Positions 21,621 to 24,091 of a DNA stretch of 64,000 nt are shown here, in pieces. This stretch comes from Halobacteriales archaeon YIM A00013 (lineage in GTDB: Archaea; Halobacteriota; Halobacteria; Halobacteriales; Haloarculaceae). The DNA lies in contig JAKCFM010000001.1 in assembly GCA_025041195.1 (NCBI GenBank), positions 2,232,001-2,296,000 of the forward strand. Direction: 5' to 3'. The notes below the pieces were generated by a model, which saw nothing but the letters and a program-made list of their open reading frames with translations, was not told where the DNA came from and made no database searches. Made by a program: the position numbers and the translations under genes. Within the stretch, counting starts at the first letter, position 1, and each line of letters opens with the position of its first letter.

Positions 21621-22114
21621 ACCGGCGCCGACTCGCGTTCGGCGCGACGTCAGTCGCGCTCTGGATCGTCATGATTCATCTCGGCGCACTGCTGTTCGAA
21701 ACCGTCGTCGTCTATCCGAACATCTTCCACGACGTTCCAGCGTCACTGGAACTGTCGATGGAGTGGATGGCGGCTACCGCGCCACACGACTTTTTCGCAC
21801 CCGTGGGTGCACTCTCGATTGTGGCCATCGGCACTGCCATTGCAGCGAGCTGGCGGTTCACAACGGTCCGAAACTGGCTACTCATTGGGCTAGTCGTGGC
21901 GATCCTGGGAGAGTTCGTGCTCTCGGCCACCGTTTTCTGGCCGCGAAACACGATCATGTTCTCCGAAGGACTCACAGTCCACTCCGCTGAGACGCTCAAA
22001 ACGACGGCAAAAACGTTCCAGCGACTCCACTGGCTCAGAGTCGGTGCAACGGTTGTCAACGCGGCGGCCGTCTTTCGGGCAACGGTGACACTCGCTCAGA
22101 AAACCCCCTCGTAA
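21617..22114 (+). CDS. DUF1772-like membrane protein next to the TnpB element
   Basis: A 165-residue membrane protein with helices near residues 12-34, 62-82, 88-108 and 140-160. It is the third gene of the halocyanin operon (ATGA overlap at 21617). The TnpB element's structured right end begins only 3 nt after the stop codon, so the last codons may have been trimmed or altered by the insertion. The C-terminus (LAQKTPS) is short and polar. The family call is by resemblance (a conserved WHHxxx region is not obvious), so treat it as a putative label. Confidence 0.6.
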   Translation: MNRRRLAFGATSVALWIVMIHLGALLFETVVVYPNIFHDVPASLELSMEWMAATAPHDFFAPVGALSIVAIGTAIAASWRFTTVRNWLLIGLVVAILGEFVLSATVFWPRNTIMFSEGLTVHSAETLKTTAKTFQRLHWLRVGATVVNAAAVFRATVTLAQKTPS

Positions 22115-22117
22115 ACT

Positions 22118-22195
22118 GCCTCGGGGTCAAGTCAAGGGAAATCGAAGTTTTCCCGTATCCAGCAAATCGCTTCGCGATTTGCGAGACCCCGAGGC
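22118..22195 (-). ncRNA. Candidate omega-RNA 3' scaffold of the TnpB element
   Basis: Immediately downstream of tnpB (the stop is at 22217-22215 on the minus strand) the sequence can fold into a three-way junction. The outer stem is 11 bp, 22118-22128 with 22185-22195. Two hairpins lie inside it: a 6-bp stem 22136-22141/22149-22154, and a 9-bp stem 22162-22170/22174-22182 with a 3-nt loop. All pairs in these stems are Watson-Crick. TnpB nucleases use an RNA made from the 3' part of the gene and the right end, with the flank as guide; position and structure fit this. The exact 5' and 3' ends of the RNA are not known, and the flanking guide would be minus-strand sequence below 22118. Confidence 0.55.
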
Positions 22196-22214
22196 TTTCG
22201 CGTGGACTCCCGTT

Positions 22215-23426
22215 CTATGCCTCAACCGAGGCGGGGGGGACGTACTCCCCACTCACGTTCACCGTCCCGCGATTCAAGCGCACGTCTACAGGTGCGCCTC
22301 CGTCGCCTGCGTTTTGCCGGCGGCGGAGATACTGTAAGCCGATGTTTTTCGCTGCGTTGTAGTCCGCATGGTTTTCGTACCCGCACTTCTGGCATGCAAA
22401 CGTCCCACGGTGGCGGTTGTCATCATGGGTAAACCCGCACGTCGAACAGCGCTTTGAGGTGTTGCGCGGGTCGACCTGGACGGCTTCGACGCAGTGTTCT
22501 GCTGCTTTGTATTCGACGTACTGGTACAACCGTCGAAACGCCCAGACGTGTTGCCACGTCGCCTGCGGGATGTTCTCTCGGATATGCGTCAAATCCTCAA
22601 ACACGATGTGCGAACAGCCGTATTCGACGGCTTCCTCGATGAGTTCGTTCGCTACGCCATGGAGGTATATCTCGAAGCGTCCGTACTCCTTGCGACCGAC
22701 CCCTTCGATGGCTTCGTGCGCGGCTCGTGTCCCGGTCTGTTGAAGCGATCCACGGCGCTTCTCGTACTCACGACGCCAATGGTTGAACTCATCGGCGGAC
22801 CAAAACGTGCCGGTGGACGAAACAGCGATGTTGTTCACTCCGAGGTCAACACCGAGGACTGTTCTGTGCTCGGTGTCGGGTTCGGGGTCGTCAGCTTCGA
22901 TCTTCCGCATTGAGGCATGGAGATACCAGTCGTCGCCGTCGCGCTGGAGATGTCCCATACGGAACTCGTAGTCGTCATCACCGACGTACTTCAGCGGCGG
23001 TTTCTCCGGGTCGTCAGGGAGGATATAGTCGCATTCTATCCGCCCGTCGACGGTCGACAGGGAGACGTGGTCGCGGTGGAAGGTCGCACTCCGCTTGTCG
23101 TACACCACGCTATCGGCAGAAAAGTGTGGCTTTGACGTTTTTTCACCGCGCTTGAGCCGTTCGACGCCGGATTTGACTGCTTCGACCGCCCGGCGAATCC
23201 CCTTCTGAACAAGATTCGCGGTGAGGTCGGTTTCGTCTTTCAGCGACTCGTACAATGCGCGTTCGGCTTTTGCTTTCGACGTTACATGGAATCCGTCGTC
23301 GCCGTGCCAGCACCACTCCGAAGCGATGTTGGCACAGTGTCTGAATTGCTCGACGGTCTCACGGAGTGTCGGATCGGCGTTTTTCGGCGTGTCGAGCTTG
23401 ATGATGGCGGTCCGACGGTATTCCAC
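22215..23426 (-). CDS. tnpB: TnpB RNA-guided nuclease (IS200/IS605 OrfB)
   Basis: A 403-residue RNA-guided DNA endonuclease of the TnpB family, ancestor of Cas12. The RuvC catalytic residues are Asp194 (GVDLGVNN), Glu277 (FEDLTH) and Asp355 (HADYNAAKN). The zinc-finger cysteines are C327, C330, C345 and C348. The frame is intact over the full family length, so the nuclease may be active. No tnpA lies beside it. The family promotes retention of the element by cutting empty donor sites. The predicted guide RNA is encoded at its 3' end. Confidence 0.95.
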   Translation of the reverse strand: MEYRRTAIIKLDTPKNADPTLRETVEQFRHCANIASEWCWHGDDGFHVTSKAKAERALYESLKDETDLTANLVQKGIRRAVEAVKSGVERLKRGEKTSKPHFSADSVVYDKRSATFHRDHVSLSTVDGRIECDYILPDDPEKPPLKYVGDDDYEFRMGHLQRDGDDWYLHASMRKIEADDPEPDTEHRTVLGVDLGVNNIAVSSTGTFWSADEFNHWRREYEKRRGSLQQTGTRAAHEAIEGVGRKEYGRFEIYLHGVANELIEEAVEYGCSHIVFEDLTHIRENIPQATWQHVWAFRRLYQYVEYKAAEHCVEAVQVDPRNTSKRCSTCGFTHDDNRHRGTFACQKCGYENHADYNAAKNIGLQYLRRRQNAGDGGAPVDVRLNRGTVNVSGEYVPPASVEA

Positions 23427-23516
23427 GATGTTTCACATTATAGTGAGTACTTACTTAAGCATTCGGGAGTAGGTCGGCTATCGCCCGGCGGTTGTTTCCA
23501 GCCATGTCGGCTTCCT

Positions 23517-23537
23517 CCCCGAGGGCAAGCCTCGGGG
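23517..23537 (-). repeat. Left-end hairpin of the TnpB element
   Basis: CCCCGAGG and CCTCGGGG pair over 8 bp across the loop GCAAG, 91 nt upstream of the tnpB start. The stem repeats the CCCCGAGG motif of the right-end outer stem. Subterminal hairpins are the transposase recognition sites of IS200/IS605 elements. The rest of the 368-base gap 23427-23794 contains only AT-rich sequence and the inverted repeat described next. Confidence 0.5.
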
Positions 23538-23726
23538 CATCCGCCTTGCTGTTCTGTGAAAGCCAGCCACGATAGCTATTCTCACCGCTGTGAACGGCCC
23601 CCATCCCGATCGACTATTATATCTAAATATAGATAGAAAACTAGCAGTAGAACTATAATTATACTCATTCATCACCACAGACCGGTCGAACATGCTAAAT
23701 CATGGGAGTGTAGGGATTACCATGGG

Positions 23727-23812
23727 TATTGGTATCATTTCTCTAAACATCTCTAAAATGTGAAGTTTTTAGTACCTGGGTCGTATACGTACGAATGAGA
23801 ATGATACCAATA
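23727..23812. repeat. 13-bp perfect inverted repeat spanning a start codon
   Basis: TATTGGTATCATT at 23727-23739 is the exact reverse complement of AATGATACCAATA at 23800-23812. The spacer is 60 nt. The right arm covers codons 2-6 of the small membrane protein that starts at 23795. Beyond the arms, GGG and CCC could extend pairing after a one-base offset. The spacer contains a direct repeat TCTCTAAA. It could be an RNA stem, an operator pair, or a small mobile element. Confidence 0.6.
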
Positions 23813-24091
23813 GCCCCCCCAACACAGTCCGAACGGACGCCCGTCGAGCCGCTTCATTCGAGCCCGGAGTCGCTGCTGGTGATGCTAGGATTTATCCTCG
23901 GAACGCCGATCGCCCTGTGGGCCATCGAACAGCCGGTACTCGCAGCCCAGATTGGGCTCGTCCTCCTCGCAGTCATTCAGCTCGGACGGCTTGCGCTCGC
24001 CTACGCCCGCTCGCTCGCAGAAGCAGAGACCACGTTCTCGGTACCGGGCACGGGTGTCGCGGTCGAGCTGCGAACCGCCCACCGATCCTGA
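23795..24091 (+). CDS. Small two-helix membrane protein
   Basis: A 98-residue protein with two predicted helices, near residues 28-45 (LVMLGFILGTPIALWAI) and 48-68 (LAAQIGLVLLAVIQLGRLAL). The N-terminal 25 residues are polar. I do not recognise a family. The ATG at 23795 lies at the edge of the 13-bp inverted repeat; an in-frame ATG at 23801 is inside it. Regulation by a leader hairpin is possible. It is followed 42 nt downstream by a UbiA-type gene in the same direction. Confidence 0.6.
   Translation: MRMIPIAPPTQSERTPVEPLHSSPESLLVMLGFILGTPIALWAIEQPVLAAQIGLVLLAVIQLGRLALAYARSLAEAETTFSVPGTGVAVELRTAHRS

Follow-up and report, generated by a model that had tools for sequence, protein, structure and literature searches.

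A twin-hairpin mobile repeat of 55 bp probably turns the right-end hairpin of a haloarchaeal TnpB omega-RNA into a three-way junction

Very probably, the 78 nt at positions 22118-22195 of the window (the whole 64,000-nt stretch of the Halobacteriales archaeon YIM A00013 genome that we analysed) are the right-end hairpin of a TnpB omega-RNA, made into a three-way junction by a 55-bp twin-hairpin mobile repeat in its loop. The features on which this reading draws are as follows, each with its basis.

22091-22110, minus strand: predicted guide GAGGGGGTTTTCTGAGCGAG, flanking DNA that adjoins the mapped right end (from TnpB biology)
22111-22117, minus strand: right-end tail AGTTTAC, the element terminus with its transposon-encoded motif and the final scaffold bases before the guide (relatives and empty site)
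22118-22195, minus strand: right-end (guide-proximal) hairpin of the omega-RNA, expanded by an insert to a three-way junction (fold z -6.4; stem covariation)
22118-22126, minus strand: 3' arm of the ancestral right-end stem, CCCCGAGGC (71 right ends compared)
22127-22131, minus strand: ancestral apical loop CTTGA, now 3' of the insert (right ends of relatives)
22132-22186, minus strand: 55-bp twin-hairpin mobile repeat, family M1, TCTC-H1(9 bp)-TGGATAC-H2(8 bp, one mismatch)-TTGA (its ends recur in copies whose flanks are unrelated)
22136-22154, minus strand: H2, hairpin GGGAAAAC-TTC-GATTTCCC (fold and copies)
22162-22182, minus strand: H1, 9-bp hairpin with a 3-nt loop (fold and copies)
22187-22195, minus strand: 5' arm of the ancestral 9-bp right-end stem, GCCTCGGGG (same position beside a 5-nt loop in 30 of 71)
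22215-23426, minus strand: tnpB, 403 aa, with RuvC and TNB domains (Pfam and alignment to solved chains)
22251-22262, minus strand: GTGAACGTGAGT in tnpB, candidate pseudoknot partner of GTTTAC (pairing potential)
22111-23555, minus strand: IS1341-type (tnpB-only) element of the IS200/IS605 family, 1,445 bp (ends from the alignment of relatives and the empty site)
23517-23537, minus strand: left-end palindrome CCCCGAGG-GCAAG-CCTCGGGG (sequence; matching region in relatives)
23556-23560, minus strand: target-adjacent motif TTCAC in the DNA flanking the left end (present at 46 of 61 parsed left ends of relatives)

The preliminary description of this DNA had placed the fold downstream of an intact tnpB, and the gene is indeed whole: it matches PF07282 (E 9.5e-22) as well as PF01385, and its catalytic motifs GVD, FED and DYN are all present when the protein is aligned to solved Cas12f/TnpB chains. 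Both ends of the element were located with a set of 80 named haloarchaeal relatives, whose right ends have in common GAACGGGAGTCCACGCGAAA, the stem and [AG][AG]TTTAC, followed by unrelated DNA, such that the alignment sets the right terminus at ...AGTTTAC| and the left at TTCAC|AG.... Because the relatives share these boundaries, the window element is placed at 22111-23555, and a sister species (G039) holds the precise empty site, ...CCCTC|GTGA..., with both flanks 93-94% identical; element ends and empty site are thus shown by comparison of related loci. The RuvC and TNB zinc domains of the protein, the subterminal palindromes, and the insertion 3' to a short motif without target duplication identify the element as IS1341-type. 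Beside the element, we observed that a plus-strand gene takes its TAA stop from the insertion (window 22104-22115; also 23556-23560), while the empty site would give TGA at that codon, so that the protein is unaltered by the insertion. Further along, a 16-nt inverted repeat (GGGTATTGGTATCATT / AATGATACCAATAGCC, 23724-23739 and 23800-23815) flanks the start of a small gene at 23795 and is possibly an operator.

On the minus strand, positions 22118-22195 fold into an 11-bp outer stem (22195-22185 with 22128-22118) that encloses two hairpins, one of 9 bp capped by a 3-nt loop (22182-22162) and one of 6 bp (22154-22136), exactly the pairing and coordinates first reported. The predicted energy is -41.8 kcal/mol (z -6.4), and none of 200 dinucleotide shuffles was equally stable. 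The shorter inner hairpin is what slight decay has left of an 8-bp hairpin, with a single A:A mismatch in the window and the intact form GGGAAATC-NNN-GATTTCCC in other copies. The fold lies on the tnpB sense strand and stops 7 nt short of the right end of the element. Since the plus strand gives the same fold at equal quality, and the hairpin comes right after the stop codon of the plus-strand gene ending at 22114, it might be read as a terminator or 3'-end protector of that gene; that reading is highly improbable, as the stop codon itself is inside the element, the plus strand has no T-run after the stem and the gene is present without the element in the sister species, and on this last ground we rejected it. 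Searches of the window against Rfam 15 (up to E = 1) and against phage and plasmid collections returned no match.

To evaluate the outer stem, we compared 71 right ends, the window included, each admitted only if 7 of the 9 stem positions paired. The 9-bp stem pairs in 93.6% of cells with 26 distinct arm pairs, a percentage inflated by the use of pairing for admission; double changes are the better measure, and here 57 cells were changed on both sides compared with at most 35 in any of 1000 column shuffles, which ignore relatedness. The compensatory change that had been proposed as a check across haloarchaeal tnpB 3' ends is therefore shown for the outer stem. The proposal that the fold lies where omega-RNA scaffolds lie was borne out too, with the stem positionally conserved in all 71 parsed right ends and ending 7 nt before the mapped element end. 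In the relatives, a conserved core (GGGAGTCCACGCGAAA), the stem and TTTAC together overlap tnpB and end at the right end, as an omega-RNA does. Judged from these alignments, the outer stem is the guide-proximal hairpin of a TnpB omega-RNA and the AGTTTAC tail its 3' terminus. From its position we infer that the hairpin corresponds to stem 4 of the ISDra2 omega-RNA, whose natural tetraloop is disordered and links the crRNA-like part to the tracrRNA-like part (PMC10097598).

The shape of such RNAs in haloarchaea had been called poorly described, which is true in part. The sotRNAs (RF02656, RF02657) are on record, and the right-end hairpin and a pseudoknot are known for Halobacterium omega-RNAs (PMC12558985), whereas the present subfamily escapes Rfam, neither of the two sotRNA models matching the window up to E 1. 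The window shares with the sotRNAs and ISDra2 the overlap with the tnpB 3' end, the right-end hairpin, the guide-adjoining tail and a possible pseudoknot; it differs from them in its right-end loop of 60 nt with two hairpins. Elsewhere in the same genome, a tnpB locus (L009, 1332-1500) matches RF02656 (sot0042) below threshold at E 1e-13, and CRISPR repeats (RF01337; L007 394-489, C2) lie near a tnpB of another type.

That loop is where the window departs from many relatives. Across the 71 right ends, loop length is 5 nt (mostly CTTGA) in 30, 26-38 nt in 30, 58-61 nt in 8 (60 in the window) and 83-113 nt in 3. The preliminary description took the three-way junction to be the haloarchaeal omega-RNA shape, a native and selected architecture, and both the strong fold and ten other elements with long hairpin-forming insertions in this loop speak for it. 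We nonetheless regard a native junction as improbable and largely refuted by the plain-hairpin relatives: the closest of these (81-85% TnpB identity) mostly have the 5-nt loop, the inner hairpins of the other elements are unrelated in sequence, and copies of the 55 nt are also met in antisense and away from any tnpB. The inner hairpins belong instead to a separate mobile repeat.

This repeat has sharp edges. The window reads GCCTCGGGG, then the 55-nt unit TCTCGCAAATCGCGAAGCGATTTGCTGGATACGGGAAAACTTCGATTTCCCTTGA, then CTTGACCCCGAGGC, and 20 full-length copies have a mean pairwise identity of 0.86 inside the unit and 0.31 in the flanks, which shows it to be discrete. The M1 hairpins are paired in 95.4% of cells across the same copies, and 10 cells are changed on both sides compared with at most 7 in 1000 shuffles, a covariation that is modest because the copies are so alike. 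A covariance model of the unit (R1), on which the window unit scores 83.7 bits, found matches at E <= 0.1 in every one of the seven genus genomes, 73 of them in G044 and 16 in the own genome; weak hits and self matches on the opposite strand count toward these totals, and about two dozen matches exceed 60 bits, all in G044, G000 and G043. Within the own genome (G000), two tnpB genes from another family carry a reversed copy at the right end (C1:1250444, C2:74503), a further copy lies in a solo PATE-like element (C1:1544507) and another upstream of that C2 tnpB (C2:76133), so that copies are found both without tnpB nearby and antisense. A strict twin-hairpin scan found no other unit in the window and none in ten Markov controls, and it also misses the window unit because of the H2 mismatch. 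As a separate observation, the solo PATE with a 55-bp unit is just downstream of a gene whose product, by eye, looks like a type III CRISPR RAMP (Csm5-like) protein, with a nucleotidyltransferase-like gene after the PATE (region C1:1543042-1544584; L004 45-1361, 1501-1587).

The insertion site of these copies is just as exact. CTT follows the unit in 20 of 20 full-length copies, and GGG precedes it in 13 of them and GAG in 4, giving the target GGG^CTT, or AAG^CCC on the opposite strand. Since CTT is already in the host before insertion, no target is duplicated. The copies occupy at least four host contexts in both orientations, among them the loop of the right-end palindrome (CCTCGGGG^CTTGACCCCGAGG), the right-end stem base of another tnpB family (GAGGNCGGGG^CTTCCTGTTTC) and the stem base of a tnpB type related to that of the window (GAGGGTAGGG^CTTTGATGTGGACTCCCG). 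The other-family right end also exists uninserted, as GAAACAGGAAG|CCCC in L090, and similar host palindromes form filled and empty pairs (L213/L271, L220/L272, L176/L269-L270), the empty members L269-L272 being PATE palindromes that resemble the filled L176, L213 and L220. In each case the filled and the empty form come from different copies or species; we found no two strains that differ at one site by the 55 bp alone.

Placing the unit among known mobile repeats, we found it closest to the SMR-A kind. The SMR-A of Haloquadratum walsbyi (HqIRS42, HqIRS43, HqIRS55) are transposase-free, leave no target duplication and have a mobilisation described as "enigmatic"; they insert in near-terminal palindromes of IS605-type transposons and PATEs, measure about 110 bp (the shortest SMR of any type being 80 bp) and have prominent terminal inverted repeats (PMC3119063). 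Our unit likewise enters the near-terminal palindromes of IS605-type elements and PATEs without target duplication, but, set against the description of SMR-A, it is 55 bp long, ends in TCTC and TTGA, contains two internal hairpins and has no inverted terminal repeat. Because size and ends differ, we rejected identity with SMR-A, and a Haloquadratum genome gave R1 no significant match (best E 0.03). The unit appears akin to SMR-A and set apart by its size and twin hairpins. PATEs host several of its copies (solo, terminal-only elements L176, L212 and L216), whereas the 55-bp unit itself lacks IS605-type ends and is not a PATE. No connection between the palindrome and a guide RNA was drawn in the 2011 SMR paper (PMC3119063). 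As far as we searched the literature, three points are new: the tie to the right-end hairpin of the omega-RNA, the exact target, and the existence of empty and filled forms.

A different identity for the insert, which would leave its place in the omega-RNA as it is, is an archaeal doublet of the REPIN kind moved by a RAYT-like Y1 transposase. Like a REPIN, the unit is miniature and has two palindromes that fold as short hairpins in single strand; it carries inverted TC tags at both ends (TCNC...TTGA), its hairpins share AAATC-GATTT cores, its copies are dispersed without target duplication, and 4 of the 7 genus genomes have Y1 genes. Yet REPINs are symmetric inverted doublets of REP palindromes with a RAYT nearby (PMC3116915), whereas here H1 and H2 differ and are predicted to fold as two separate hairpins rather than as paired inverted palindromes, insertion is strongly and precisely targeted to IS605-type palindromes, and neither a RAYT nor any other transposase tied to the repeat was identified. 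We therefore hold the REPIN kind to be rather unlikely.

As to how it spreads, the M1 repeat would move as single-stranded DNA through a Y1 transposase acting in trans, and would enter AAG^CCC at the junction of a loop or linker with a stem. The invariant 5' AAG on the strand opposite to the unit, the lack of target duplication and the hairpin ends resemble Y1 single-strand transposition, a likeness that is suggestive. Of the two Y1 genes in the own genome, one is intact and one broken. The three genus species without Y1 have 5, 4 and 1 matches as opposed to 16, 14, 17 and 73 in the others, a relation confounded by the possibility that Y1-bearing genomes hold more target palindromes, and Y1 gene counts follow copy number only loosely across the seven genomes. 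One Y1 gene (G044 C1:2536093) lies 46 bp from a copy, which itself sits in a host palindrome.

M1 has counterparts of the same build. Seven loci (L052, L055, L057, L061, L062, L084, L094) have units of 53-56 nt and other sequence in the right-end loop, laid out as TCGT-H1-TGATGA-H2-AACCA; in L064 and L116 a TCGT unit in the right-end loop has a second unit nested inside it, and the TCGT unit is also found in the left-end palindrome of L053 and a 5' stem of L120. Units of a further type (L282-L286, in genomes G228, G367 and G210) are nested in TCGT...AACCA units, whose linker they split at GTGA^TGA. A genome of another family (G277) has five identical 52-nt units (L273-L277) of yet another sequence, with different flanks, at the corresponding loop position, CCTCGG(G/A)G^CTTGACCCCGAGG, of PATEs, which looks like recent spread. 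Weaker R1 matches, inspected in part, turn up in 106 of 146 family genomes at E <= 0.01, and across the phylum in 25 of 295 genomes at E <= 1e-5, mostly of the same order and again inspected in part. We also noted two-hairpin inserts elsewhere in the ends of tnpB elements (L049, L053, L054, L103, L110, L118, L119, L125, L126), some of which fall in the tnpB-coding 3' end. Four copies of another unit in G044 (TGTCGC...CTGCTAACCAGAAATC..., L237-L240) have conserved flanks and probably lie inside a larger repeated gene.

For the guide RNA, the M1 repeat would have inserted between GGGG and CTTGA of the right-end loop, which would convert the hairpin into a three-way junction and lengthen the scaffold by 55 nt. 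That a conserved hairpin is so precisely interrupted with the rest undisturbed, together with the circular omega-RNAs of haloarchaea (PMC12558985), could also suggest an RNA-level intron removed from the omega-RNA. We rejected this reading, extremely improbable in our estimate, since the predicted fold has no bulge-helix-bulge motif; none is found for the circles either (PMC12558985), and the unit is also present antisense and in hosts without tnpB nearby. Taking the insert as a mobile repeat kept in the RNA, we folded the scaffold (22111-22281) both as it stands and with the 55 nt deleted, and obtained identical structures outside the right-end stem. Because the fold of the scaffold, the tail and the guide boundary are predicted to be unchanged, TnpB probably still uses the RNA, which would be made with its insert and work. 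The tnpB gene is open in 9 of 11 expanded elements and in 25 of 30 plain ones, which gives no sign of expansion killing the system. In the candidate pseudoknot, GUGAAC (22257-22262) can pair with GUUUAC in six pairs, one of them G-U, with too little variation for covariation; with the 55 nt taken out, GUGAAC would lie at about -92 to -97, close to the ISDra2 partner at -102 to -106 (PMC10097598).

More broadly, and with doubt outweighing belief, twin-hairpin single-strand transposons of 50-57 bp without coding capacity may form a large, so far unrecognised class in haloarchaea, which would comprise many sequence families of one architecture, each with a fixed short target, landing safely in TnpB guide-RNA hairpins and nesting in each other, so that scaffolds grow by parasitism with their function kept. 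The finding itself helps account for the wide length variation of omega-RNA right-end hairpins, and it cautions that an inserted mobile repeat can be misread as a guide-RNA motif. The right-end loop is a natural site of 50-110 extra bases, which is useful for the engineering of TnpB guides, and the 55-bp unit, with its exact ends and target, offers a far smaller model for the movement of haloarchaeal small mobile repeats.
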